The notes below the pieces were generated by a model. It saw only the letters and a list, made by a program, of their open reading frames with translations. It searched no databases and was not told the DNA's origin. Positions 4,951 to 23,810 of a stretch of DNA of 23,810 bases are shown here, piece after piece. Source of the stretch: a virus; IMG/VR virus record IMGVR_UViG_3300004154_000048, positions 1 to 23,810 of that record. The stretch is one strand, 5' to 3'. The position numbers and the translations under genes are program-made. Position 1 is the first letter of the stretch. Each line of letters opens with the position of its first letter.

Positions 4951-7119
4951 CTACTCCTCCTCGTCTTCCACCACCGGCTGCATCGTGCACCGGCAGTTGA
5001 TGTCTTCTTCAGCCGCGCCCAGTTGCCCAGGCCCCGGCCCGCGTCCCGATCCAACCTCGAAATCCTCGTCCATGTCTATCGGCGCGTTCTGGTAGCGCCT
5101 GTGCGCTTCCACGTGGCTGTCCCGTGCCCGGTCGTCCAATTCCGCCAGCCACGTCTTGCGAATCTTCAAGCCCGTCTGCTTCCAGGCCTCCAGCCGCCCG
5201 CCGTTCATCGCCCCGGTCACTTCCGTCCTGGCAATCGCCTCACTCGAGCTTTGGATCCGGTCACCCATCACCGCTTCCACCCGCGCTTGCAATTTCACCA
5301 GCCCCTCGCCCCCTTCGATGCCCTCGCTCAGGCTCTTCTGCAAGGTCTTCCAGGTCGTCTCGTTCACTTCCTTGGCAAACCGCTGCGCCCGCCGCTCGAT
5401 GAACCGTGCCGCCCCTGCCGCGCTCACGTCGAAGACCAGGTTCAGCGTTCCCATCTCGATGTACTCTTCCTCGCCCGTTTCCTGCACCAGGTCGCGTAGC
5501 TTGGGCCGGATCCGCACCCTGAACCGCTTGATCCAGTCCGCCAGGTTGAACAGGTCGCCCAGGTCCGCCCGCTGGCCGGTCGATTGGATCGACCGTTCCG
5601 CCTTTTCGAGCTTACTCAGCACGCTCTCCTTCTGGCTGCGCATCAGCTCGGCCACTGCCTCGCCAATCACCCGCTCCCACCGGCTCGCCCGCCGGTCAAA
5701 CTTCTTCCACGCCCGCTCATGCTCAGCGCTCCGGTACTCGACCCCCTGGACCGCCCTCACAGATCGCATCGACCGCGGCTCTTTTCCTTCCTCTTCCTCT
5801 GGGCTAACGGCTGACGGCTGAGAGCTGACAGCTTCTTCCTCTTCCTCTGAGCTGATAGCTGACGGCTGATGGCTGACGGCTTCCTCCAACGCTTCGACGG
5901 GCACTGCCGTGCCCGGCGCCCACCACGTATCCCCCCACGGCAGCGGCTTCTTGCCCTCTTCCTCCCGCCATTCGTTGATCAACATCGCCCCACGGTCGAT
6001 CTGATTCATCGCTCGTGTCCAGCGATCCGTCTTTGCCTCTTGCAGATCAGCAACCTCACTGTCGTCAAACTCGACCAGGTCGGCCTCGCCCCCAAACATG
6101 GGCACCAGCTGCTCGGTTATTTCTCCGGCAATGAATCGCGCCTCTGGCAGCACCGCGTGGGTCCAGGCCGCCCGCATAGCCGCGGGGAAATTCTCATAAG
6201 TCCGTTTCCCGCCCGCCAGGTCCTGCGGCCACTTGTAAGCCCGGCAGATCTCCTCCAGCGACAACTGGATGCCCTGGATAAACTCAGCGTCATGTGGGCT
6301 AATTCCCAGCGCCTTCGTCTCTACCTCGAAGCGAAACACGCCCCACCGGTGCGCCTTGTCCACGCCCTTGAACCGCTGGTCCAGCAATGCCTCGATCTCC
6401 CCGGCCTGCTGCTCGGTCAGTTGCGTGTTCTGCTTTGGGATGACCAGCCCGCCCGTCTGCAACCCGTTGCGGAACAGGTTGCGGTTCGAGCGCCACGCCT
6501 CCCCGGCATAGTCCGCTGCGATCCTCGATGCCGCCAGCGGCGAAAGCCCGTCGTACTCATCCATCGGGTTCGGATAGCGGAACCAGATCACCTCGCTCGG
6601 CAGGTAACCGATCGGCGTTCCCCCGGTCATCGGCGTGTAAGCAAACCCCTTAATGTAATTCACCGGGTCAGGGTACACCACCACCCGATCAGGCCGCCCC
6701 CACCAGATCTCCCGCGGTGTCTGCGTCCCCGACGGCCCCCGCTCCAGGAACCAGAAGGCCTTGCCCCACAGGCACAGGCTCAGTTCCGTCATCGAGATCA
6801 ATCGGTTCATCGTCCAGTGCGGGTTCACCTTCGTCAGAAGCTGCACCAGGTTCCCCTGGGTCACCTCTTCCCGCTTTCCGTTGCGCAACTTCATCGCCCG
6901 CTGCGGCAGGCTTGAAAGCAAATCTGCCCGCCCCGTCGCGCACGCATACACCCCGTTCGACTTGGCGATGTACTCCCCGTACTCCTCTGGCGCGAATTGG
7001 CTGTCCGGCCCACCCACGCCGTACGCTTGCATCGTCGCATCCACCACGCCCGGCCCCAGCACAAACGACCGCAGCGATTGGCGCACCCGTTCCCGGATTC
7101 CCGTCGTCCAGCGCGCCAT
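4951..7119 (-). CDS. Portal protein fused to a MuF-type head morphogenesis domain
   Basis: 722 residues. Residues about 40-410 are an HK97-type portal (SNGVYACATGRADLLSSLP, MTELSLCLWGKAFWFLER, EVIWFRYPNPMDEYDGLSPL, FRNGLQTGGLVIP), which forms the dodecameric ring for DNA entry. Residues 413-445 are a Glu-rich linker with a tandem 16-residue repeat. Residues about 615-715 match phage Mu gpF-like minor head proteins: IARTEV at 629-634, DDRARDSHVEAH at 662-673 and INCRC at 707-711. The start ATG overlaps the TerL stop by one base (TAATG), which implies translational coupling. The two domains are usually separate neighbouring genes, so the fusion is notable. The linker repeat belongs to a family dispersed in this element. 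Confidence 0.9.
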   Translation of the reverse strand: MARWTTGIRERVRQSLRSFVLGPGVVDATMQAYGVGGPDSQFAPEEYGEYIAKSNGVYACATGRADLLSSLPQRAMKLRNGKREEVTQGNLVQLLTKVNPHWTMNRLISMTELSLCLWGKAFWFLERGPSGTQTPREIWWGRPDRVVVYPDPVNYIKGFAYTPMTGGTPIGYLPSEVIWFRYPNPMDEYDGLSPLAASRIAADYAGEAWRSNRNLFRNGLQTGGLVIPKQNTQLTEQQAGEIEALLDQRFKGVDKAHRWGVFRFEVETKALGISPHDAEFIQGIQLSLEEICRAYKWPQDLAGGKRTYENFPAAMRAAWTHAVLPEARFIAGEITEQLVPMFGGEADLVEFDDSEVADLQEAKTDRWTRAMNQIDRGAMLINEWREEEGKKPLPWGDTWWAPGTAVPVEALEEAVSHQPSAISSEEEEEAVSSQPSAVSPEEEEGKEPRSMRSVRAVQGVEYRSAEHERAWKKFDRRASRWERVIGEAVAELMRSQKESVLSKLEKAERSIQSTGQRADLGDLFNLADWIKRFRVRIRPKLRDLVQETGEEEYIEMGTLNLVFDVSAAGAARFIERRAQRFAKEVNETTWKTLQKSLSEGIEGGEGLVKLQARVEAVMGDRIQSSSEAIARTEVTGAMNGGRLEAWKQTGLKIRKTWLAELDDRARDSHVEAHRRYQNAPIDMDEDFEVGSGRGPGPGQLGAAEEDINCRCTMQPVVEDEEE
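5791..5886. repeat. Tandem 48-bp repeat in portal linker ('AVSxQPSAxS' family)
   Basis: Two near-identical 48-bp units (starting 5791 and 5839) share GCTGACGGCTGA at the same position. The period is exactly 16 codons, so the portal frame is kept and the protein gains AVSSQPSAVSPEEEE and AVSHQPSAISSEEEEE. A third related copy lies at 14006-14048. The composition (short GCTGA-like subrepeats) is that of known dispersed bacterial repeats which insert in coding and non-coding DNA. Confidence 0.75.
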
Positions 7120-8660
7120 TAGAATACCAACCTTCCGGTCAGAGTCATTGGTCCAGCCACCATGTAAAGCCCTCCTGCCGCCGTGTCAATTTGATCGTCA
7201 TGCCGACCGTTGGGGAAGTCCAGCGCCTCCAGGATGAAGGCCTGCACCCACGGCCCCCGCACCAGCTTCACCTTGCCCGCCTTCGCCCGCCCTTGCAGCG
7301 GGCGGCACCTGGTCACCTTGTCGTTCTGCGGCGTCACCCGCCGGATGTCCACGCTGGCCAGGCTCGGATCGCGCATCAGCTCCTGCCACAGCAGCGCGCT
7401 GAATGCCACCGTTTCCACCGCCCAGGTCGTTCCAGCCTCTTCTGGGCTCAGCATCGCCACTCGGACCCGCGCCATGAACTCGTTGATCTCCTGCACCCGG
7501 ATCATGTCCCGCAGGTACACGTCTCCGTTTTCGTCCATGGCCACCCCCACGCACGAATTGAAGTCCGCCGTGCGGTGCTCTCCCATCGCCGGGTCAAAGT
7601 ACCGCATCCACCGCAGCTTTTCCGGCGCGCGGTCGACAATCTCGAAATCCGCCGCGTCGAAGAACCCGCCCTCTTGTGGTCTCGGCTGCTGCTGATAAAG
7701 CGCATGCCAGTCCAGCATGCCGCCGTTCAGCTCCAGGTTCTTACGGATCCTGGCCAGCGCGTCCTCATCATATTTCTGCGGCCACAGCGCCTCGCCTGCC
7801 TTGCGCATCAGTGGGTCCGAGCGGTCCCGCCACAGCCCCTCCATCAGTGCCTGGTTCTGTTGCTCGTCGCTGGCCGCCATCTCGCCCAGGTCGTAGGCCA
7901 GCGCTGGCAGGCACAGCACCGTCCACTGGTCTGCCAGTGGGTCGGTGGCCATGGCCTTCAGTAGCTCACCGCTCAGGTCTTCCCGATGCCACCGCGTGTG
8001 GATGATCACCACCGCGCCGCCCTCTTCCAGCCGCGTATATGCCGAGCTGGTGTACCAGTTCATCACCTTTTTCCGGTACGCCACGCTGTCCGCATCCTCT
8101 CGGTTTTTGTACGGGTCGTCGATCACCAGCAGATGTGCGCCCTTGCCCGTGATGCCCCCGCCCACACCGGCAGCCACCACCCCGCCTCGGTGCGGCTCGG
8201 CCAGATCCCAGTTGCTCTTCGCCCGCGCGTCTTCGCTCAGCTCCACCGGCTGCTCCACCGCGCTCTGCTGCCCAAAGATCGCCGCGAACCGTTCGCTGGT
8301 CACAATCTGCCGGATCGCCCGGCTGTTGTCGCTGGCCAGCTCTGCCCCGTAGCTCGTCACGATCACCCGCCGGTCCGGTTGCCTGCCCAGCAGCCACGCT
8401 GGGAAGATCTGGCTCACCTCCACCGTCTTCCCGTGTCGAGGTGGCATCTCGATGATCAGCCGCCCAATCCCCGTCTTCCCGCCCGTGCGGATGTAGGTCT
8501 CCACCTGCTCCAGCATCTCCGCCACCAGGTCATGGTGCGGCCTCGCCTGCCACCACGGAAACACGTACGACCCGAAAGCCGTCAGCCGCCGCCGCGCCAG
8601 CTCCCGCCGCGCCCGCTCAGCCCGCGCCACCTCTGGAGAAATCGCCGTTGCGACCATCAT
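7119..8660 (-). CDS. terL: Terminase large subunit (DNA-packaging ATPase/nuclease)
   Basis: 513 residues. The N-terminal ATPase has Walker A MPPRHGKT at 72-79 and Walker B HLLVIDDP at 177-183; SGELLK and HTRWH motifs follow. The C-terminal RNase-H-like nuclease shows the expected acidic residues: Asp356 in RYFDPAMG, Glu416 in WAVETVAF and Asp488-489 in NGRHDDQIDT. The protein packages and cuts concatemeric DNA at the portal. It overlaps TerS by 4 nt (ATGA) and touches the portal start at its stop. Start MMV at 8660 is used; the second Met is equally possible. Confidence 0.95.
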   Translation of the reverse strand: MMVATAISPEVARAERARRELARRRLTAFGSYVFPWWQARPHHDLVAEMLEQVETYIRTGGKTGIGRLIIEMPPRHGKTVEVSQIFPAWLLGRQPDRRVIVTSYGAELASDNSRAIRQIVTSERFAAIFGQQSAVEQPVELSEDARAKSNWDLAEPHRGGVVAAGVGGGITGKGAHLLVIDDPYKNREDADSVAYRKKVMNWYTSSAYTRLEEGGAVVIIHTRWHREDLSGELLKAMATDPLADQWTVLCLPALAYDLGEMAASDEQQNQALMEGLWRDRSDPLMRKAGEALWPQKYDEDALARIRKNLELNGGMLDWHALYQQQPRPQEGGFFDAADFEIVDRAPEKLRWMRYFDPAMGEHRTADFNSCVGVAMDENGDVYLRDMIRVQEINEFMARVRVAMLSPEEAGTTWAVETVAFSALLWQELMRDPSLASVDIRRVTPQNDKVTRCRPLQGRAKAGKVKLVRGPWVQAFILEALDFPNGRHDDQIDTAAGGLYMVAGPMTLTGRLVF

Positions 8661-10955: not shown

Positions 10956-11662
10956 CCCTCTACCCTCTTGAACTCAATCACCCACACCCACGGGTTCACA
11001 TCCCACCCAAACCCGCGTTTGGCGTTGATCTCATTCCACAACCGGTGGAACTCCACCACCGCGTCATACTCCCGATCAACCTTGTCTGGATCTGCGTCAG
11101 GCCCTGGCCGCCACACCCCCTCAGCCAGCGCGTCCGCGTAGGAAATATCCTGCACCCGCTCCACCCGCACGTTAGTGGCCTCCAGCGTGATCCTGCTCGC
11201 CCAGCGAGGCATGTAGATAGATGGTCGCCATTTCGCGGTGCCAGAAAAACTTTCAGCTACAATTGGCGCCTCATTCGCTTTCCACCAGATGTGATCCCTA
11301 TTTCCGCAATGCACGTCGAAGCAATTTTGATCATCATGAGCCCACGTCTCCCGCACCCACAGCCAGTCACTTACAACGTATTTTTGCCGGGTGCCATAGA
11401 TAGTTGATACCGTTCCATTGTCGTGGCGCAGATCAAATAAATAATGGCTAGGCGTCTTACGAACAAAGATTTTCTCCATCGAATCTCGGTATATGTATTG
11501 CAGAGACTCCGGCCACATCACCTGCCTAGTTTGAATCTTCCTTCCATCCAGGATTGCTCTAACCATCTCGCCAGAAAAAATAATTGGCAGATCCGTCCTG
11601 TTGCCCCTCGCCAATATATCCTGCATCATCTCATTTGAAAGCATAATCCGTTGCTCTTTCAT
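10952..11662 (-). CDS. ASCH-like phage protein of unknown function
   Basis: 236 residues from ATG 11662, supported by GAGGAG upstream and a 4-nt ATGA overlap with the preceding zinc-ribbon gene. The order of motifs matches a phage family related to ASCH-domain proteins: LPIIFSGEMVRAILDGRKIQTRQV, then WLWVRETWAHDD, then KWRPSIYMPRWASRITLEAT, VQDISYADALAEG, and the end WNEINAKRGFGWDVNPWVWV. ASCH folds resemble PUA domains and are thought to bind RNA or modified nucleotides, but the role of this phage branch is not established. Codons here are more AT-rich than in the head genes. Confidence 0.75.
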   Translation of the reverse strand: MKEQRIMLSNEMMQDILARGNRTDLPIIFSGEMVRAILDGRKIQTRQVMWPESLQYIYRDSMEKIFVRKTPSHYLFDLRHDNGTVSTIYGTRQKYVVSDWLWVRETWAHDDQNCFDVHCGNRDHIWWKANEAPIVAESFSGTAKWRPSIYMPRWASRITLEATNVRVERVQDISYADALAEGVWRPGPDADPDKVDREYDAVVEFHRLWNEINAKRGFGWDVNPWVWVIEFKRVEG

Positions 11663-11850
11663 TTCTTTCTCCTCGTCTTCACAATCACATTCCAAAAAAA
11701 CCTTACTACCTCCATCGGCTTTGCCGTTCCATAGAGGCATGTATCTCGGCTGTCACATTGTGGGCATTTAGGCATGTTAGGCATGATGTGCCTCTCTGGT
11801 AACTTGAACGTCGCCCCGCATCTATCGCATTCGTAATAAAAATAATCCAT
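11659..11850 (-). CDS. Small zinc-ribbon protein
   Basis: 63 residues from ATG 11850 with GGAG upstream. Two CxxC knuckles are visible, YECDRCGATF at residues 6-16 and PKCPQCDSRD near 27-36, a rubredoxin-like zinc ribbon. A hydrophobic/basic C-terminus (VVRFFWNVIVKTRRKK) follows. It stands in a tandem of cysteine-rich genes with 1-4-nt junctions. A nucleic-acid or protein adaptor role is likely but unproven. Confidence 0.7.
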   Translation of the reverse strand: MDYFYYECDRCGATFKLPERHIMPNMPKCPQCDSRDTCLYGTAKPMEVVRFFWNVIVKTRRKK

Positions 11851-11853
11851 AGC

Positions 11854-12183
11854 TCACTCCTCTCCTTCCCACCCACACTCCAAATAATCCCCGTTCTCCG
11901 GTACAAAATTTTTCAATGATCGAGCGACAAAATCTCGCATGTATTGATCAGTCTCCTTTTCCTCTGCCCCGCTTCCGTACGAGACATCTCTCAGCGCCCG
12001 GCAGTCCGCACAAATATCCTCAAGTAACCCCGGTTCCACTTCATCAACAGCGACCCACTTGCCACAGATCAAACAATTGAATCCGTTCAACCCGCATACA
12101 TTCTCAATATGAGTGCAGGCCTCGGAACCATCCATAAAACCTTTGCAGTCACACTCAAAACCACACCACGGACACTCGTGCAT
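11854..12183 (-). CDS. Cysteine-rich zinc-binding protein
   Basis: 109 residues from ATG 12183 behind GGAGG. Cysteines are arranged CPWC, CDC, then FNCLICGKW and ICADC (three or more probable zinc sites). The block LNGFNCLICGKWVAVDEVE...ICADCRALR is clearly related to LNAFNCLNCERWITGEEAA...YCDECTAKR in the next gene upstream, so the two genes share a duplicated ~40-residue module. The C-terminal half is acidic. No enzymatic motif is seen; a role in binding nucleic acid or a host protein is possible. Confidence 0.7.
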   Translation of the reverse strand: MHECPWCGFECDCKGFMDGSEACTHIENVCGLNGFNCLICGKWVAVDEVEPGLLEDICADCRALRDVSYGSGAEEKETDQYMRDFVARSLKNFVPENGDYLECGWEGEE

Positions 12184-12396
12184 TTAAAAACCTCCTTCTC
12201 TTTTCGCCGTGCACTCATCGCAATAACCATCCATGCGACGCGCCGCCTCTTCCCCGGTGATCCATCTTTCGCAATTCAGGCAGTTGAAAGCATTCAGATC
12301 AATCCCCTCGTTGCATAAGGGGCAGGGCGATTCTCCGTCATATCCCTCACGCACATACCCAGTTCCATTGCACAAATTACAATATTCGACTGACAT
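12184..12396 (-). CDS. Cysteine-rich zinc-binding protein with DnaJ-like knuckle
   Basis: 70 residues. ATG 12396 is preferred because AAGGAG lies just upstream; an upstream TTG in frame has no site. The N-terminus YCNLCNGTGYV resembles one CxxCxGxG knuckle of DnaJ, paired with PCPLCNEG. The C-terminal module FNCLNCERW...YCDECTAKRE is paralogous to that of the downstream gene. The stop is directly adjacent to the next start, consistent with one operon. Confidence 0.7.
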   Translation of the reverse strand: MSVEYCNLCNGTGYVREGYDGESPCPLCNEGIDLNAFNCLNCERWITGEEAARRMDGYCDECTAKREGGF

Positions 12397-12452
12397 AACT
12401 ACTCCTTCCAATTCGTGAAATTCGTGGATAACTCATCTCCGTCCCTCTTCCC
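12397..12452 (-). other. Short leader of the zinc-protein operon
   Basis: The gap holds the ribosome binding site of the first zinc gene and a small tandem ATTCGTGAA/ATTCGTGGA motif of the kind found dispersed in bacterial genomes. I see no convincing promoter. Confidence 0.3.
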
Positions 12453-12481
12453 CCAGGAAGGCCCCTTAGCGGCCCTCCTGG
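12453..12481. other. 11-bp hairpin next to the partition repeats
   Basis: CCAGGAAGGCC (12453-12463) pairs with GGCCCTCCTGG (12471-12481) with one G-U pair and a 7-nt loop. It starts right at the end of the repeat array, downstream of the RHH gene. There is no U-run on either side, so it may be an RNA-end structure or part of the DNA site itself. Confidence 0.4.
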
Positions 12482-12483
12482 AG

Positions 12484-12573
12484 TCTCTAGCGCTTCCCTA
12501 TACGCTGGCGTAGCCTGTTTTCTCTACGCTTCCGTATACGCTTCTCTCTGCGCTTCCGTTTGCGCTGGCGTAG
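12484..12573. repeat. Three ~30-bp iterons, candidate centromere (parS/parC-like)
   Basis: Three related units start at 12484, 12521 and 12543, each with TCTCT followed by CGCTTCC and then TATACGCT or TTTGCGCT; the two outer units end in GGCGTAG. The array lies 4 bp downstream of the RHH gene that follows ParA. Short direct repeats beside a parA-plus-RHH operon are the normal form of a partition centromere. The site is inferred from position and repetition alone. Confidence 0.6.
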
Positions 12574-12576
12574 ATT

Positions 12577-12954
12577 TCACTTTTCTTCACTTTCCGGCAA
12601 CACCAGCACACTGTCATAAAACGGGCTGTGGCTGGGCCGCCTCGGCCACCGCTCCAGGTCCACCCCGGCCCGCATCGCCTGGATCAACATCGCTCCCGCC
12701 ACCGAGCTCACCGGCACGCTCTGCTCTTGCGCCAGTTCCCGCACCGCCTTGATCAGCCATTCCGGCAGGTCATAGCTGGCCTTCTTCCGCGCCCGGTCAG
12801 CCTCGATCTTCTTCCGCTGCCCCGGTGTCAGTCCCTTCGCTCGCCGCGTCCTGTCGGCATGCCGCAGCACCGGGTCGTCCTGCCCGAACACCGCGCTGCT
12901 CACCGCCTCGTCCGTTACCGCTTGCACTGGGTAGTTTTTCTTGATGGCCATCAT
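12577..12954 (-). CDS. Ribbon-helix-helix DNA-binding protein, probable ParA partner
   Basis: 125 residues from ATG 12954 (ATG 12951 also possible), 1 bp after the ParA stop. The segment ASYDLPEWLIKAVRELAQEQSVPVSSVAGAMLIQAM (about residues 63-98) has a strand followed by two helices, as in RHH/CopG-like DNA-binding domains that act as dimers. The basic N-terminal region (LTPGQRKKIEADRARKK) is flexible and could stimulate ParA ATPase, as N-termini of centromere-binding proteins do. It would bind the iterons at 12484-12573 and autoregulate or segregate the element. Family and role are inferred from motif plus context. Confidence 0.7.
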   Translation of the reverse strand: MMAIKKNYPVQAVTDEAVSSAVFGQDDPVLRHADRTRRAKGLTPGQRKKIEADRARKKASYDLPEWLIKAVRELAQEQSVPVSSVAGAMLIQAMRAGVDLERWPRRPSHSPFYDSVLVLPESEEK

Positions 12955-12955
12955 C

Positions 12956-13762
12956 TCACCTCACCACCCGCTCCACAATCTCAGCCAGGTGCAGATAGCC
13001 CCCCACCCGCTTCCGGCTGTTGGTCGCCTTGATTCCATTCGCCGCATAGCCGACCGCTGCCGCGCTGTTCGGCGCATACTCCCAGATCGTCACCCCCCGG
13101 CTGGCCGCTTCCCGCACCTTCGTGTCCTCTGGAATAGGAGGCAGCACCAGATCAGGTCCCCCCACCAGCTCAGCCAGTCGGCGCAGGTTGCTGTCCGTCT
13201 CGTTCGTCTTCCGCTCATAGATCGTCGGCAGCACCCCGATCACCGTCGGCGCCGTCACGCTCGGGAAGGCTCCCAACCCACGCACCGTCTTCAGGATCTC
13301 CGCCGTCCCGTCCAGCCCCAGATAGTCCAGCACCACCGGCACCAGCACGAAATCAGCCGCCGCCAGCGCGCTGATGTGCAGCGTATCCGAGCCCGGCGCC
13401 AGGTCCAAAAAGACCAGGTCATACTTCCCTTCCGCGGCCATCAACGCCTCGCCCACCACCCGCTCGCGCTGCGGCATATCTACCAGCCACACCCCGATCT
13501 TGGCCGTCTTCTTATCGCTCGTCACGATGTCCAGCCCCATCCGTGCCTCGATCACCACCTCGCTCAATGGGTCCTCGCCCACCAGCCAGCGAAACAGCCC
13601 GCTGCCCTTCGGCTTGCCCAGCAGCTTCGCCACGTGCCCCTGCTGGTCCACATCCACCACCAGCACCTTGTACCCCTGCCCAGCGAACCAGCTCGCCAGC
13701 GCGATCGTCGTCGTCGTCTTCGCCATCCCGCCCTTCTGATTGGCCACTGCAATGATCTTCAT
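12956..13762 (-). CDS. parA: ParA-family partition ATPase
   Basis: 268 residues with a deviant Walker A motif KGGMAKTTTT at 10-19 (signature Lys10 and Lys15), VVDVDQQGHV (A' motif) and FLDLAPGSD (Walker B). Size without an N-terminal DNA-binding extension fits small type Ib ParA proteins, which pair with RHH partners. It moves or positions DNA on the nucleoid and implies an extrachromosomal phase or unstable copy number. It overlaps the upstream small gene by ATGA and is followed 1 bp later by the RHH gene. A role in FtsK/envelope positioning is a less likely alternative. Confidence 0.9.
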   Translation of the reverse strand: MKIIAVANQKGGMAKTTTTIALASWFAGQGYKVLVVDVDQQGHVAKLLGKPKGSGLFRWLVGEDPLSEVVIEARMGLDIVTSDKKTAKIGVWLVDMPQRERVVGEALMAAEGKYDLVFLDLAPGSDTLHISALAAADFVLVPVVLDYLGLDGTAEILKTVRGLGAFPSVTAPTVIGVLPTIYERKTNETDSNLRRLAELVGGPDLVLPPIPEDTKVREAASRGVTIWEYAPNSAAAVGYAANGIKATNSRKRVGGYLHLAEIVERVVR

Positions 13763-13956
13763 TTCGTTTCTCCGTTCTTCTTGATGATCTTCAAATCCAC
13801 CAGCTTCACCGACCGCCGCCGGGCATACACCCCGTCTTCCCGCTCCACGTTCGGCCCGTACTCCACCACCGCGTCCGCCTCATAGGCAAACACCACCACC
13901 CCCGTCATCCCATCCTTCATCACCACCCGGTCCCCCGCCTCAATCTTTTCTTCCAT
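13759..13956 (-). CDS. Small beta-rich protein (KOW/SH3-like), unknown
   Basis: 65 residues from ATG 13956 with GAGG upstream. EAGDRVVMKDGMTGVVVFAY and AVVEYGPNVER form a beta-strand pattern like KOW or small SH3-like barrels that bind nucleic acid or protein. It overlaps ParA by 4 nt (ATGA), so it belongs to the ParA-RHH operon. Its place before ParA is unusual; it could be a regulator of partition. The 81-bp gap to FtsK upstream contains a dispersed repeat. Confidence 0.6.
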   Translation of the reverse strand: MEEKIEAGDRVVMKDGMTGVVVFAYEADAVVEYGPNVEREDGVYARRRSVKLVDLKIIKKNGETK

Positions 13957-14005
13957 CGTTTCCTCTCTTATTCGTGTCTATTTTCTTCATTCGCGGATCG
14001 TCTTT

Positions 14006-14048
14006 TCTTCTCTGGCTAACAGCTGACGGCTGATAGCCTACAGCTTCT
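14006..14048. repeat. Dispersed 'AVSxQPSAxS' repeat, copy at the ftsK 3' end
   Basis: CTGGCTAACAGCTGACGGCTG plus the following TGATAGCCTACAGCTTC matches each 48-bp unit in the portal linker (5791-5886) over about 36 bp. The ftsK stop codon lies inside it. It probably moved into the 3' end of the gene. Confidence 0.65.
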
Positions 14049-15300
14049 CCCCTTGAGGCCCTTGAGGCTCCTTGAGGGCTTGAGGAATCGCCGCCAAAAC
14101 CCTGGGGGCCAGTTGCCGCGCGTTCCCCACGCCTGCCACCAGCCACCCCTTCGACGACCACTCGTTCAACATCATCCGCGCGCGCCACTCGCTCCACCCG
14201 ATCTCCTTCAGCTTGGGGATGCTCATCACCCCACCCCACTCTGCTGCTGCTCGTTCTGCCAGGTGCAGTTCTCGCCCCACCGGCACGTCGCTGGCCGCCG
14301 TCTCCAGCGCGGGCAAAAACGCCTGCGCCTCCACCAGCCGTGCCCCCCAGCTCATCAACAGCCGCCCCTTCGTCTTCGGCAGCTTCTCCGCTCCGCTCCG
14401 TCCCAGCACCACCATGCTGTCCGAGACAGCCGGGACCGGGAAACAAATCCGAGTCGCCAGGTTGGTTTTGATCAACCCGCCCACCTCCTGCACGCTCGTC
14501 CGCTGGGTAGCCAGCACCGGCAGGATTCCATACGCCCGCCCGGTTGCCACCACCTGCGCTAGCCGCCCTTGCAGCTCAGCCGGTACCAGGGCCGCCTCGT
14601 CGATGATCAGCACCACCCACAGCATTTCCGTTATCCCAGCAGGCCCAAGCTGCGCGATATATTCCATAATCCCCCGCGCCCCGGCTTCCTTGAATTGCTC
14701 TGCCCGCTCCTCGATCGTCTTCTCCAGGTAGCTCAGCCCCGTGTCCAGATCATCCATGGCCAGCACGTGCGGCTCGTTCTCATACCGCCCGAACTCGTTG
14801 CCGCTCTTTCCATCCCACAGCACCAGCTCGCACTCTTTGCCATGCAGCAATGCCTGAATCCAGCCGTGCAGCAGCATCGTCTTGCCAAATCCGCGCGTTC
14901 CGCCCACCAGCACGCTGTCCGCATCCACCAGCGAGATCCACAGTGGCCCCTTGCGTGTCATGCCGATCGGAACGTCCATCGACCTCGCCTGGGCGCTCAT
15001 ATCCAGCGCTTGGCTCTCCAGCCGGTGCGCCAATCGCTCCACCCTCGTCCCCACCTGGTAGAAGATCCCTACACTGTTCGTCCGCACCACCGATGCGCCG
15101 CCCAACCGTGTCGCCAGGTCGTGCCGGAACTGGTCGCTCAGCACCGACCGCATGTTGCGCACATTGTGCGGGTTCACGCTCATCACCACCCGCTCGTCCA
15201 GCTCCCAGGCCCAAAACCAGGGCAGGCTCGCATCGTGCACATGCGGCTCCAACAGGCTTGCCATCGCCGCCACAATCTCATCCACGCTTCTAGCGCCCAT
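14038..15300 (-). CDS. FtsK/SpoIIIE-type DNA translocase ATPase
   Basis: 420 residues from ATG 15300 behind GGAGG. The motor has Walker A GGTRGFGKT at 133-141, Walker B LWVVLIIDEAA at 227-237 and a LATQRT sensor-like motif near 263. C-terminal residues about 340-400 look like a winged helix (SIPKLKEIGWSEWRARMMLNEWSSKG). No transmembrane helix is visible, so membrane attachment may be through the membrane proteins encoded just upstream. FtsK-like motors pump double-stranded DNA; related single motors in actinomycete elements (Tra) transfer DNA between cells. The short tail (KEPQGPQGEKL) derives from repeats. Distinct from TerL, which is present too. Confidence 0.85.
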   Translation of the reverse strand: MGARSVDEIVAAMASLLEPHVHDASLPWFWAWELDERVVMSVNPHNVRNMRSVLSDQFRHDLATRLGGASVVRTNSVGIFYQVGTRVERLAHRLESQALDMSAQARSMDVPIGMTRKGPLWISLVDADSVLVGGTRGFGKTMLLHGWIQALLHGKECELVLWDGKSGNEFGRYENEPHVLAMDDLDTGLSYLEKTIEERAEQFKEAGARGIMEYIAQLGPAGITEMLWVVLIIDEAALVPAELQGRLAQVVATGRAYGILPVLATQRTSVQEVGGLIKTNLATRICFPVPAVSDSMVVLGRSGAEKLPKTKGRLLMSWGARLVEAQAFLPALETAASDVPVGRELHLAERAAAEWGGVMSIPKLKEIGWSEWRARMMLNEWSSKGWLVAGVGNARQLAPRVLAAIPQALKEPQGPQGEKL

Positions 15301-16330
15301 CCTGCGCCTCCTTCCAATCGGCCTCCAGCACCTCGATGATCTCTTGCGTCACCGGCGGCGTCTGTCCCGACCGATACACCATATACCGCGGCCCTGCCTT
15401 CGGCGCTGCCTCTCGAAACTCTCGCCCGCTGCTGTTCCCGTTCGTCTTTTGCTGCGGGATGAACAGCGACCCGCGGTGTTGCAGATCCACCATCTGGTCT
15501 CTGGCTGTGGTTCGCTCCTGGGTCGCCCCATCCGCCAGCATCGGCTTGCTCGGGTCCAGCATCGGCCCGGTGTTGCGATCCAGATCCACGTAAGCACCTT
15601 GCGGCGTGATAATGATCGGCGCGTCCCCTCTCGCGTCTCTCTGGATCACGCGCAGCACCGGCACAGCCACCCGCACCAACACTACCGCGATCAGCACCAG
15701 GATCAGCGTCGCCAGGATCCCGATCACAAACGGCATCACCGCGGTCATATCGTTCACGATTCGCTGCCGTTCGGTGTTCATCCGCAAAATCTCGGCCTGC
15801 TCTGTGCTGATCATCCCCACGTACACCGCCGTGGCCGTCGCATCGCTGGCGTCCGCCGTGGCCGTTCCCGACCATGACCGCTCGGCCCGCAAGGCCAGCG
15901 CGGCGTCGCCCGTGGCCGTCCACTGCGCCAACATCAACGCCATTGCGTCCGTCGTGGCCTGTGCCCCCTGGGTCGCCCGGGCCGCGCCTTCGGTCGCTTG
16001 CATCGCTGCCTGGGTCAGTCCTGCCACAAACGCCTGGCCGGTGGCCATTCGTGCCCCTTCTGCCTGGGTCGCCTGGAACCGCGCCGCCTCAGCCGTAGCC
16101 TCGGCAATCATATTCGTCGCCCGCTGCCGTTCCCGCTCCAGGTCCAGCACTGCCCCGGTGGCCGTCGCGTCGATCACCTGCCTCGTCGAGGCAAAAGCCC
16201 ACTCTGTGGCGTTCGGAGTCCCGCTCGGTGCCAGGGCCGTGCCCACGCTCTGCGCCATCGGCGCAACGTCGCAGGCCGCGAATAACACCAGCGCAGCCAC
16301 AATCGTGAGAACAGCCGTTGCCCGTTTCAT
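15290..16330 (-). CDS. Ala/Thr-rich lipoprotein with C-terminal membrane helix
   Basis: 346 residues from ATG 16330, touching the upstream stop as TGATG. A signal sequence with a lipobox-like FAAC (Cys20) starts the protein. Residues 30-190 are a long Ala/Thr/Gln-rich helical region (ATAEAARFQATQAEGARMATGQ, ATEGAARATQGAQATTD) typical of extended stalks. A second membrane helix spans about 197-220 (AVMPFVIGILATLILVLIAVVLVRV), leaving about 120 residues in the cytoplasm (DLDRNTGPMLDPSKPMLAD). It overlaps the FtsK gene by 11 nt. A scaffold linking envelope and motor is a plausible inference. Whether it is lipidated is unproven because Phe, not Leu, precedes Ala-Ala-Cys. Confidence 0.75.
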   Translation of the reverse strand: MKRATAVLTIVAALVLFAACDVAPMAQSVGTALAPSGTPNATEWAFASTRQVIDATATGAVLDLERERQRATNMIAEATAEAARFQATQAEGARMATGQAFVAGLTQAAMQATEGAARATQGAQATTDAMALMLAQWTATGDAALALRAERSWSGTATADASDATATAVYVGMISTEQAEILRMNTERQRIVNDMTAVMPFVIGILATLILVLIAVVLVRVAVPVLRVIQRDARGDAPIIITPQGAYVDLDRNTGPMLDPSKPMLADGATQERTTARDQMVDLQHRGSLFIPQQKTNGNSSGREFREAAPKAGPRYMVYRSGQTPPVTQEIIEVLEADWKEAQDGR

Positions 16331-16836
16331 CACCACCCCCACGGGTTCGTGCTCTGATCGACCGGCGCGTTTTGTTCCACCAGCATCGGCGCATCTTGCC
16401 CGGCCCGGCGCGGCTGATTCTGCCGCATCTGCTCTTGCATCATCTGCATGGCCATCATTCCCATCATCATCTGCAACGGGTCGCCCGAGCCCATCAACTG
16501 CGGCATCTGCTGCCGTTGGAAATTCGCGTTCGGTCCCGGCGCCCACTTGCCAAATGCGCCCTGACCAATCCCGGCCTGCTGCACCATCCGCTGGACCTTG
16601 ATCAGCCGGTACACCAGGTATCCCACCACGATCATGCCCAGCGCCAGCATGACCACCAGCGCCACCACCAGCACCGAGTTCGACCTGGCCGTCTCCAGTT
16701 GCGCCGCGCTGGCAATCTGCGCGGCCCTGGCCGCCTCGATCGCTGCCTGCGCCTGATTCGCGGTCGCCGCGCTGCTGGCAATCCAGCCCACCACCAGCGC
16801 CAGCAAAATAATCACCGCCAAAATGATCAGTACCAT
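16330..16836 (-). CDS. Two-helix membrane protein with Met/Gln-rich tail
   Basis: 168 residues from ATG 16836 with AAGGTAGG upstream. Helices lie at about 2-20 (VLIILAVIILLALVVGWIA) and 54-80 (VLVVALVVMLALGMIVVGYLVY), joined by an Ala-rich helical loop (QAQAAIEAARAAQIASAAQ). The C-terminal ~90 residues are low-complexity, with MMMGMMAMQMMQEQM and QNQPRR, and look disordered. It is coupled to the downstream lipoprotein by a 1-nt overlap. Function unknown; part of the FtsK operon. Confidence 0.7.
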   Translation of the reverse strand: MVLIILAVIILLALVVGWIASSAATANQAQAAIEAARAAQIASAAQLETARSNSVLVVALVVMLALGMIVVGYLVYRLIKVQRMVQQAGIGQGAFGKWAPGPNANFQRQQMPQLMGSGDPLQMMMGMMAMQMMQEQMRQNQPRRAGQDAPMLVEQNAPVDQSTNPWGW

Positions 16837-18859: not shown

Positions 18860-21688
18860 TTAGACATTCTTTAAGGTTCCTTGTTGGGCCTCTCCAGGCT
18901 TTGGCCCGAAATCCTCGCGGTTGATTCCATACTTGTTCGACAGCCCGATCAGCTTGGGCTCGTTGAACACAACATAGAAGCCATCCCGCCGCCGTGGCGT
19001 CACCTGGAAGTTCAACCCGCTGCGCAGGATGCGCCCGATGCGCTGGCTCTTGATCTCCTTGCCCGCCTTGTTGTTATCCTCCTCGTCTTCGTCATTCATT
19101 TCGTTCACAATTTCATTCGTGATCTTGGTTACGTCGCCCACCTTGATCAGGAATGTGCCATCCAGTTCCGGCTTGACCATCTTTTTATTCAGGTCCGGGT
19201 ATTGCCAGATCTTCCACAGCGCCTCGATTACCCGTGCGTCCAGCGTCATGCCCGCGCTCACGATCGTCTCGGCATAGTATTCGCGCAGCACCGACCGGAT
19301 CGCGTCCTGCTGTTCTGGGTCGTCCTTGGCGATCGCCAGCAGCGGCCCCGCCACCTGGTTCAACCGCGCCGAGATCGTCAGGTCGTAGAAGTCCTGATCC
19401 ACCGGGATCTCTGGCAGCCAGGTCTCCATCCGAAAACGCAGCAGCAGGTTGCGCAGCGCCTGGGCTCGTTCCCGCACCTGGTCGTTCACCGTCAGCGGGA
19501 TCTTCGCCGCGACCAGCTCGGTCATTTCTCGCGGCGCAATCTTGAACGTCAGCGACCTGGACCCAACCGCGTCATCCCGAAAGTCCTTGCGCATGGCGAT
19601 CAGCTTCGGGCAGAACGTGCGGAAGGCCCGCTCCTCAAAGTCCTTGGTCCCGTTCGGCCCGATCACCTCCACCGTTCGCCAGATCGGGTTGCCCCGCATC
19701 GCCCCCAGGTTGTAGAACTTGATCATGTCCTGCTCGGTGTCGCTGTTTTGGAGGTCTGCCTCGTCCAGGAAGCACACGCCCTGGTAGCGTTCCACTGCCC
19801 GAAACAGGCTGGAGGTCGAGCCTGCGCCGTTCGCGGTCATGGTCCGGTAGCAGATCATCCCGATCCTCTTCATAAGTTCACTCTTGCCCGAGCCAGCCCC
19901 ACCCATCGCGCGCAGGTACAGGCACGTCTCGAAGCTGTCGTACACCCACGTCAGCAGGATCCAGTAGGCGATCAACCGCGCAGCCTGGTCGCTGGGCAGC
20001 AGGTAGATGTTCTTGAGGTACATCTCGATGTAGGTGATCAGCTCCTTGATGCTCTTGCGGTCGCCCAGCCCCGAGGCGAACACGATCGCCCCGCTTCGCA
20101 GTGTCTCGTTCGGTGGATAGGGCACGTACCGCTGGCCGTCGATCACCACGTCCGACCCGCTGTGGATCTGCCCGTCTGGATCTCGCCACGCCAGCATGGC
20201 CTTGTCCGCTTTCACGTCATACAGATACTCCACCAGGTGATCGCCCACCGGCCCGCCCCACGTGTACACCGGCTCGCCCTGGGCTTCCTTCTCTGCGGCC
20301 TTGCTCTGATACGCCTTCAGCATGGCCTGGAGTTCGCGCAGCCCCACCCGCAGCAGCTTGGCCAGATCGTTGCGGTACTGCGCAAAGTCCAGCTCGCCCA
20401 GCTTGGAGATCACCTGCAACGCCTTGACCATGGCCTCGTCCCTGGGCGCACCGTCCAGTGCCCCCGCCCACGCCGCGATTGTCTCTGCATACGTCCTCGC
20501 CTCGTGCAGCATCCCCCGCACCTCGGCCCGCTGGGCTTCATCGTTCACCCCCGCCCCAACCATCGCCCGCAGCAGGTCGTTGGCGTCCTTCACTTCGTGC
20601 TCTGCCCCATCCTGCCCGCGCCAGTTGCGGTATTCCCGCACCTGCCAGCGCAGCAGGCGCGCCTTCGGCCCCATCGCGTCGGCCACCTTCCAGGCGTTCT
20701 TCTGCCCGGCCTCGTCCGCATCTAGCCCGATGTACACGGCCTGGTGCCGCTCGAGCATGGCGGCCAGCTCTTCGCCCGGCGCAACGCCCGCCAGCGCCAC
20801 GGCGTCCAGCCCCCACTGCCCCAGCGTGATCGCGTCCGCCTGCCCTTCCACAATCACCACGTGCTCAGCCCGTGGCGCATAGTGCTGGTTGAAGAAGGCC
20901 TGGCGCTTGCCCACCAGCGCTTCGGGCAGGTTGTAGTGGAACTTCTCCACAATCCCCCGCGCCGACAGATACACCAGCCGCCCGTTGTAGAGATGCGGGT
21001 ACACCAGTCGCCCGTGCCCCAGCATCCCCGGGATGTAACCGTCCAGCACCCAGTTGTCGTTGGGCTCCACCCCGTGCCTCTTGCCCCATGCGGTCACGTC
21101 ACCGCGCATACCCAGGATGGCGACCGCGGCAGGACTGGTCACGTCTACCTGCGCTTCGGCCATCGCCGCCAACATCTCTTCCCGCTCTTCCCGCGTGCCT
21201 GTCCCGCTAAAGCCCAGCATAGCCCGCACAGCCGTGCCCGGCTCTTTCTCGCCATCCACGTCCCCAGCCCACACGCCCCACCCGCGCCCCTCGGCGTAGG
21301 CCTTCGCATCATCCGAGGCCATGAACCAGCGCACGAACACCCGGTGCGCCACTTCCAGCACGCTCTCCCGCATCCGCGCCGCCATCCTCGCCTCGCCATC
21401 TTCCCGGCCCCACTGCACCCTGGGCAGCCCCGCCCGTGCCGCCAGCGCTTCCACCGCCGCCTTGAAGTCCATGCGCTTGCTGCGCTCTGTCCAGGCGATC
21501 ACGTCCCCCCATTCCCCGCGCGTGTTCCAGTGGTACATCTGTGCTTGCACATCCACCACCAGCCCGCCCACCCCGTTCGTCGTGCACTTACGATAGCGCC
21601 CGCGCTTTGGCAGTGGGTACCCGTCCGCCTCGATCACGTCCTCGATTGGATTCTTCTCTTTGACCTGGTCAACAATGCTTTTTTCCAT
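18860..21688 (-). CDS. Primase-helicase fusion (TOPRIM primase plus P-loop ATPase)
   Basis: 942 residues from ATG 21688 with GGGAG upstream. Residues 1-90 align by eye with the DnaG zinc domain (YHWNTRGEWGDVIAWTERSKRMDFKAAVEALAARAGL) but lack its cysteines. A TOPRIM domain follows with VVIVEGQADA at 277-286 and GLDADEAGQ at 321-329. A helicase-type ATPase has Walker A GGAGSGKS at 596-603 and Walker B VCFLDEAD at 638-645. The C-terminus (QRIGRILRSGLNFQVTPRRRDGFYVVF) resembles a winged helix that could bind the iterons downstream. It is the likely initiator/priming/unwinding protein of this element. Exact AAA+ family is not certain. Confidence 0.85.
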   Translation of the reverse strand: MEKSIVDQVKEKNPIEDVIEADGYPLPKRGRYRKCTTNGVGGLVVDVQAQMYHWNTRGEWGDVIAWTERSKRMDFKAAVEALAARAGLPRVQWGREDGEARMAARMRESVLEVAHRVFVRWFMASDDAKAYAEGRGWGVWAGDVDGEKEPGTAVRAMLGFSGTGTREEREEMLAAMAEAQVDVTSPAAVAILGMRGDVTAWGKRHGVEPNDNWVLDGYIPGMLGHGRLVYPHLYNGRLVYLSARGIVEKFHYNLPEALVGKRQAFFNQHYAPRAEHVVIVEGQADAITLGQWGLDAVALAGVAPGEELAAMLERHQAVYIGLDADEAGQKNAWKVADAMGPKARLLRWQVREYRNWRGQDGAEHEVKDANDLLRAMVGAGVNDEAQRAEVRGMLHEARTYAETIAAWAGALDGAPRDEAMVKALQVISKLGELDFAQYRNDLAKLLRVGLRELQAMLKAYQSKAAEKEAQGEPVYTWGGPVGDHLVEYLYDVKADKAMLAWRDPDGQIHSGSDVVIDGQRYVPYPPNETLRSGAIVFASGLGDRKSIKELITYIEMYLKNIYLLPSDQAARLIAYWILLTWVYDSFETCLYLRAMGGAGSGKSELMKRIGMICYRTMTANGAGSTSSLFRAVERYQGVCFLDEADLQNSDTEQDMIKFYNLGAMRGNPIWRTVEVIGPNGTKDFEERAFRTFCPKLIAMRKDFRDDAVGSRSLTFKIAPREMTELVAAKIPLTVNDQVRERAQALRNLLLRFRMETWLPEIPVDQDFYDLTISARLNQVAGPLLAIAKDDPEQQDAIRSVLREYYAETIVSAGMTLDARVIEALWKIWQYPDLNKKMVKPELDGTFLIKVGDVTKITNEIVNEMNDEDEEDNNKAGKEIKSQRIGRILRSGLNFQVTPRRRDGFYVVFNEPKLIGLSNKYGINREDFGPKPGEAQQGTLKNV

Positions 21689-23587: not shown

Positions 23588-23810
23588 CTATTTCCGCCGA
23601 AGTTTTCCCAACTCGCCCGCTTCCACAGCCTCGGCCAGGTCTTCCCGCCCGGCCTGCGTGTAACGCGCGGTCGTCTCAATTTTGCTGTGCCCCAGAATCA
23701 CCTGCGCCTCGGTCAGTGGCCGCGCCGCGTCGATCATGCTTTTCGCGCACGTGTGCCGCAGCGCGTGGCAGCTCAACCCTTCCATGCCCAACTGCCTCGC
23801 CAGCTCCTCC
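23588..23810 (-). CDS. Tyrosine recombinase/integrase, partial (C-terminal end)
   Basis: The frame enters from the right edge and gives 73 residues of the catalytic domain: HALRHTCAKSM supplies the H-x-x-R pair, ILGHSKIETTARYTQ supplies the second His and the nucleophilic Tyr. These are the C-terminal motifs of phage-type and Xer-type tyrosine recombinases; the first catalytic Arg and N-terminal DNA-binding domain lie outside the window. It most likely integrates and excises the element. No attachment site is visible because the flank is missing. Confidence 0.85.
   Translation of the reverse strand, partial: EELARQLGMEGLSCHALRHTCAKSMIDAARPLTEAQVILGHSKIETTARYTQAGREDLAEAVEAGELGKLRRK

Follow-up and report, generated by a model that had tools for sequence, protein, structure and literature searches.

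Introduction

Most of what is known about partition systems comes from the plasmids of a few phyla. For type Ib systems, the description in PMC5016525 places the centromere upstream of the operon and makes the RHH protein the repressor of that operon. For the RHH adaptor ParR, it is described in PMC9426499 that the specificity for its own parC decides incompatibility. Partition genes are also carried by phages: the phage-plasmids of glacial viromes, as presented in PMC4490671, possess ParA/ParB partition genes recognized by Pfam, and an integrase was present in one case.

Here we analyzed a single linear virus record of 23,810 bases, referred to below as the window, in which the main genes are all on the minus strand. 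We consider it quite likely that the window comes from a temperate tailed phage and carries its type-Ib-like ParA-RHH-parS partition module, with the centromere downstream.

Results

ParA and RHH Genes of the Window

The cassette and its surroundings comprise the following features.

12451-12483, minus strand: stable hairpin directly past the repeat array (MFE z of -3.68 for 12415-12490)
12489-12572, minus strand: repeat array on the 3' side of the RHH gene, made of about seven degenerate 12-bp iterons; the presumed centromere (parS), placed by periodicity and register
12577-12954, minus strand: gene for a putative RHH centromere-binding protein (ParB/ParG-like) of 125 aa, assigned from Pfam, the fold model and its position adjoining ParA
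12769-12783, minus strand: codons of the presumed DNA-recognition strand K58-A-S-Y-D62, with columns from the HMM alignment
12956-13762, minus strand: gene for a ParA ATPase of 268 aa without an N-terminal HTH extension
13759-13956, minus strand: gene for a 65-aa, beta-rich, KOW-like protein, overlapping parA by ATGA

The ParA gene of the initial annotation was confirmed. The protein matched Pfam AAA_31 at E = 1.3e-35 and phrog_164 at 3.1e-45, and its P-loop at residues 9-17 has the deviant Walker A motif KGGxxKT, which is invariant across three homologues. The closest solved structures were Soj proteins (Soj 1wcv). The motor beside the RHH gene is a ParA ATPase, not the actin-like ParM of type II ParMRC systems.

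The RHH gene had also been named in the initial annotation. Pfam RHH_5 matched it only at E = 0.0039, which is below the curated cut-off, but the AlphaFold model (mean pLDDT 80) had mainly RHH proteins (CdbA, CopG and Arc) as its best structural matches, with a VIA Z of about 4 and a Foldseek E that was not significant. Judged from this model, the 125-aa product is an RHH protein. Its N-terminal region, the part in which type Ib adaptors carry an arginine finger that stimulates ParA, is basic and contains a conserved DPAV motif. The RHH gene is kept beside ParA in related loci. No ParB_N match was detected among the window proteins scanned with Pfam; the adaptor adjacent to ParA is the RHH protein, not the HTH-type ParB of type Ia systems. 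In tblastn, the RHH protein had no match in 72,556 plasmid records or 50,697 phage records. When the FtsK-like, KOW-like or RHH protein was used as the sole query, no relative was found in IMG/VR.

The closest relatives of the cassette are L002, a 40-kb IMG/VR record (ParA 55% identical), and L003, an Anaerolineales MAG (54%). Since these are the nearest relatives, the host is probably a member of the Anaerolineae.

The ATGA overlap between the 65-aa gene and parA is present as first described. That this gene is a part or a regulator of the module was not borne out. No homologue of the KOW-like protein was detected in the compared loci (local phmmer), in the IMG/VR scan or in the PDB, and a single-sequence fold model was useless (pLDDT 45). 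The gene preceding parA differs among loci: by ORF reading, L002 has another small gene in this place, which also overlaps by ATGA; that of L003 is HNH-like and that of L205 resembles a methyltransferase gene. Because homologues are lacking and the preceding gene differs in these three loci, the KOW-like gene is, on present evidence, a passenger outside the module. The trio of KOW-like, ParA and RHH genes, for which the initial annotation had suggested a search in other genomes, occurs only in the window among the loci compared.

A 12-bp Repeat Array Downstream of the RHH Gene

Three adjacent 30-bp repeats had initially been proposed next to the RHH gene. These were ruled out by the low identity of the region at lag 30 (0.37, compared with 0.49 at lag 12, 0.55 at lag 24 and 0.53 at lag 36) and by the pairwise matches among the proposed units, which were 10/30, 21/30 and 11/30. 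The true unit is 12 bp and is present in about seven copies at 12489-12572. The consensus is TACGGAAGCGCA, and the seven in-register units match it at 10, 11, 8, 11, 4, 9 and 10 of 12 positions. The impression of 30-bp repeats arose because of a 60-bp (5 x 12) recurrence, by which the similar pair of 30-bp units sits 60 bp apart.

The repeats of the window are beyond chance. When the intergenic region was dinucleotide-shuffled 60 times, their periodicity was never reached. The best score in this test, 0.604, was that of the 30/60 comb (60 being 5 x 12), and the 12/24/36 comb scored 0.605. In addition, no non-overlapping 84-nt stretch of the window matched the 12-bp comb score of the array. A cruder count of repeated 6-mers gave only p = 0.035 for the array. 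On the 5' side of parA in the window, no repeated 6-mer was detected (p = 0.595).

A terminator scan found no terminator. Since the hairpin at 12451-12483 is not followed by a T-run, it is not a standard terminator; it is possibly the end of the par transcript. The motif CAGGAAGG (CCAGGAGGGC in the window, 12475-12484, minus strand) was observed 3' of the arrays in loci whose arrays differ. It occurs within 260 nt in 9/59 loci, and shuffles gave at most 5 for any 8-mer.

Position and Pitch of the Arrays in Related Loci

The ParA sequences of the window, L002 and L003 were aligned and used as the query, and the best 80 of 131 IMG/VR relatives were taken. RHH profile searches around the taxa of the L003 genome matched 23 of 396 genomes for the class (E <= 0.001), 16 of 400 for the phylum (1e-5) and 85 of 400 for the order (1e-5). 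The resulting 97 non-redundant ParA-RHH pairs were divided into a first set of 51, including the window, 26 pairs with upstream boxes and 20 weak or tandem-RHH pairs. One locus (L158) was later shifted to the upstream-box set, which left 50 loci for the pitch and Lys/Arg analyses.

In the first set, the 300 bp behind the 3' end of the RHH gene contained a significant repeated 6-mer (p <= 0.01) in 35/51 loci, and the 5' side of parA did so in 3/51. The 3' array fell short of p <= 0.01 in 16/51 loci, the window among those. According to the initial annotation, its reading would fall if close relatives that keep parA lacked the repeats. Most relatives that keep parA have arrays 3' of the RHH gene, and the partition-like locus of the initial annotation, with its ParA and RHH genes, was supported. 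Among the 50 loci, spacings between same-strand repeats were mostly 12 (53 cases) and 13 (34), and the first repeat starts at a median of 13 nt past the RHH stop.

The second set of 26 pairs has the opposite tendency, with repeats 3' in 2 and 5' in 8, and its GGGGCGACCC boxes coincide with a promoter-like stretch. L147, L150, L151 and L210, among others, form a sister ParA-RHH clade in which such boxes and the stretch beneath them were seen 5' of parA. In the third set of 20 pairs, repeats were 3' in 6 and 5' in 1. On the ParA tree, 6 changes are enough to account for the three sets, against a shuffled mean of 40.9. The window is placed there in a supported group of 11 rows, every one of which belongs to the first set.

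Several variants of the gene arrangement were also observed. In L109, L113, L114, L122 and L127-L136, the proteins adjacent to ParA are about 200-240 aa, and some have repeats 3'; those of L109, L113, L114 and L122, as read, apparently have two RHH domains per chain. In L002, a gene named cytosine-methyltransferase-like by ORF reading lies between parA and the RHH gene (6834-8420). A prophage-like stretch of L208 (11397-12218) has an HTH-type ParB (ParB_N 2e-17) in addition to a ParA-RHH pair.

The Recognition Strand and the Array Core Covary

The array cores vary among loci and include GCCAGC, GGTTGC, GGCACC, GACACC, GGTATC and others. At least three copies of GCCAGC were present in 10/14 loci with a Lys-x-Thr recognition strand and in 0/83 others, where the 14 include the loci from which this rule was derived. 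A link between the RHH beta strand and the core had been noticed in those first loci and was fixed as a rule in advance of the others. Among held-out loci, L100 and L102 agreed with the rule, and L097, with two copies, did not; as there is no ParA in its fetched stretch, L097 is outside the 10/14 and 0/83 counts. Of the further held-out loci, L175, L184 and L198 agreed, and L195, L179 and L182 disagreed.

A simpler rule, formulated post hoc once all loci were known, relates the first strand residue to the core: Lys goes with GCT in 16/17 loci and Arg with GGT in 24/31. The exceptions are mostly Arg-x-Asn strands, which deviate systematically, with GGCG/GGAC cores. The starred (supported) branches of the ParA tree force at least 8 Lys/Arg changes. 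The core follows Lys/Arg in a mean of 7.0 of 8 independent pairs and takes the opposite direction in 0.0 (sign test, median p = 0.016). In a preregistered blind test, the single qualifying locus, L224, a near relative of L101, failed. Among extra loci with no ParA in the fetched stretch, L231 fits the rule. It is broken by L217 and L213, whose proteins are those of L103 and L097; the cores of L187 and L190, likewise with no ParA in the fetched stretch, are neither GCT nor GGT. The window itself has a Lys-x-Ser strand and a mixed array (CGCTGGCG twice and CGCTTC four times), which is consistent with GCT.

Thus, the covariation of recognition strand and array core is well supported, and it supports that this RHH protein, and not another, reads this array. 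The Lys/Arg rule itself is unproven because the only locus that qualified for the blind test failed.

Two finer rules were also tried. A one-to-one code for every strand was rejected, since Arg-x-Thr occurs with GGCACC, GACACC or GTCACC, Arg-x-Met splits between GGTT and GGTG, and Arg-x-Asn has GGCG/GGAC. A rule for residue 3, by which aliphatic residues or Phe go with GGTA, held in 7/9 versus 2/24, but with only 4 independent pairs it did not reach significance (p 0.25).

Phage Genes around the Cassette

The window is a piece of a tailed-phage genome, in which phage structural genes and partition genes occur together (portal, terminase and ParA-RHH). The terminase gene was found by Pfam. Other features are as follows.

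Portal gene: Pfam 8.7e-54
14038-15300, minus strand: FtsK/SpoIIIE-like ATPase gene, 5' of parA (Pfam FtsK_SpoIIIE, 6.5e-11)
18860-21688, minus strand: Toprim primase gene, 942 aa (Pfam Toprim_2)
23588-23810, minus strand: tyrosine recombinase gene, C-terminal end only, cut by the end of the record (Phage_integrase, 2.9e-10)

Terminase_6N was matched in 13/16 virus records, in 12 of them above the cut-off. A homologue of the window primase lies in the fetched flank of 10/15 other virus records; it was also found in L069, which is a second record like L018. Since most virus records have a homologous primase close to the cassette, the latter travels together with a replication gene, and the primase is probably its partner in replication.

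Homologues of the FtsK-like ATPase occur near several related cassettes, with matches in 11 loci (L101 and L124 being the same place). The order of an FtsK-like ATPase gene, a lipoprotein-like gene and a small membrane protein gene upstream of parA recurs in an integrated element; the places concerned are the window (14038-16836), L205 (2131-4922) and L069. Short repeats of the GCTGACAGCTGA type were observed at 5787-5887, within the portal gene, and again at about 14009-14050. At 351-2009, a GDSL-type hydrolase domain forms the C-terminal end of a 552-aa late-region protein, perhaps a tail-linked enzyme.

Plasmid-like or Integrating Life Cycle

The plasmid-like stage predicted in the initial annotation is plausible. 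The ParA of the window is 44.8% identical to a ParA (hrd7_34360) of AP024711.1, the best among the plasmid matches listed. AP024711.1 is a 212-kb plasmid, complete and circular, from Leptolinea sp. HRD-7, a member of the Anaerolineales. The neighboring protein hrd7_34370, which is annotated as hypothetical, is an RHH protein of the second set, with boxes upstream. Thus, a sister of the window cassette sits on a real plasmid.

Other observations go against a purely plasmid-like life. A tyrosine recombinase was found in 10/16 virus records, the window included, and two related cassettes are located in one 3.44-Mb contig. By ORF reading, one of these is within about 10 kb of ordinary-looking host genes, near succinate-dehydrogenase-like genes. 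The module might stabilize a prophage or ICE-like element that integrates, acting solely in the interval from excision to integration, and would then be no mark of a plasmid-prophage. This reading competes with the plasmid-like life cycle and leaves the partition function untouched. Against it stand the sister-clade pair on the complete circular plasmid and the 6/16 records that show no recombinase, although these records are fragments. Moreover, a recombinase of the Cre type could have another use, the resolution of plasmid-prophage dimers, as with Cre in P1. We regard the purely integrating life cycle as possible but on balance doubtful.

Discussion

The two partition genes and the repeat array were observed directly, as were the position of the array behind the RHH gene, its conservation in related loci and the covariation of its core with the recognition strand. 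By analogy with type Ib systems (PMC5016525), DNA binding, ATPase stimulation and segregation would proceed as follows. The RHH protein would dimerize via paired beta strands and bind the 12-bp iterons 3' of its own gene, probably with one dimer per iteron as the pitch suggests, to form the partition complex. Its N-terminal part would stimulate the ATPase of nucleoid-bound ParA, and ParA would move or space the excised circular copies of the phage genome, one per daughter cell. The module would serve a replicon with its own primase. It may act in a purely episomal lysogeny or between excision and integration.

An alternative function for the array has to be weighed. It may mainly be a transcriptional operator, through which the RHH protein, perhaps with ParA as a co-regulator, acts in the manner of Arc-type phage repressors on the small zinc-ribbon genes downstream and on the late region. 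In favor of this, repression is a classic role of RHH proteins, and the array does lie between the RHH gene and the next gene. Against it, usual operators have fewer repeats than the seven or so iterons of the window, the array stays with the RHH gene while the genes behind it differ, and the three small genes directly 3' of it in the window (11659-12411) have no homologue in the compared loci. A promoter-like TTGACA/TATAAT stretch underlies the boxes upstream of parA in the sister clade, whereas a scan of 12150-14150 in the window found no sigma-70-like promoter. The pairing with ParA by itself is no evidence against an operator because the loci were selected for this pairing. On this evidence, we judge that a mainly regulatory role is unlikely. 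It is very improbable that an initiator binds the iterons as replication-control repeats and that the RHH protein is a copy-number regulator: a primase gene is near most cassettes and plasmid origins carry iterons too, but no Rep initiator was found among the window genes scanned, and the array core covaries with the RHH strand.

Beyond the partition module of the window, we propose, with a little less than even confidence, that Anaerolineae phages and related elements possess a large ParA-RHH family with a 12-13 bp centromere downstream of the adaptor gene, in which one residue of the RHH recognition strand has switched many times between Lys and Arg together with base 2 of the core (GCT/GGT), creating partition-incompatibility groups. 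If this is true, the groups would let related prophages share one cell. The roughly 50 loci in which adaptor and presumed centromere vary together form a comparison set for DNA reading by RHH proteins and for changes of partition specificity. The family also suggests that phages of this poorly cultivated group pass through plasmid-like or excised circular stages.

Comparison with Known Systems

As far as open-access word searches show, the new points are the presumed downstream RHH centromere of 12-13 bp and the way it varies jointly with the adaptor among phages of Chloroflexota and related elements; these searches turned up neither a 12-bp RHH centromere in a downstream position nor a partition system of Chloroflexota phage-plasmids. 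Already known, from what PMC4490671 and PMC9426499 describe, are partition genes in phages with integrases and adaptor-centromere specificity for the RHH protein ParR, respectively.

The glacial phage-plasmids resemble the window in that phage genomes carry partition genes, one of them together with an integrase; the description in PMC4490671 concerns ParA/ParB and, in the part available, does not extend to an RHH adaptor or an iteron array. The type II ParMRC systems (R1, pSK41 and the pCW3 family of C. perfringens) share with the window an RHH adaptor with direct repeats. In contrast, the motor of the window is a ParA ATPase and not the actin-like ParM, and its repeats are downstream. The pair of Leptolinea sp. 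HRD-7 on AP024711.1 has a related ParA and an RHH partner of the same family, and is located on a circular plasmid. It belongs to the sister clade, in which a promoter-like stretch upstream of parA carries the GGGGCGACCC boxes, whereas the array of the window is 3'.

The closest likeness is to type Ib systems, such as ParF-ParG-parH of TP228 and delta-omega-parS of pSM19035. In common with these, the window has a small ParA without an N-terminal HTH, a putative RHH centromere-binding protein in which an N-terminal extension precedes the RHH domain, and short repeats as the presumed centromere. The pitch of 12-13 bp differs from the heptads of omega, and the N-terminal extension is predicted to be partly helical, whereas type Ib adaptors are described as flexible there (PMC5016525). 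The type Ib assignment of the initial annotation fits the proteins but not the position of the repeats: the presumed centromere of the window is downstream of the RHH gene and none was seen upstream (p = 0.595; upstream repeats in 3/51 pairs at p <= 0.01), whereas PMC5016525 describes it upstream. Since the downstream centromere departs from that description, we call the module type-Ib-like, not a member of type Ib by every criterion.
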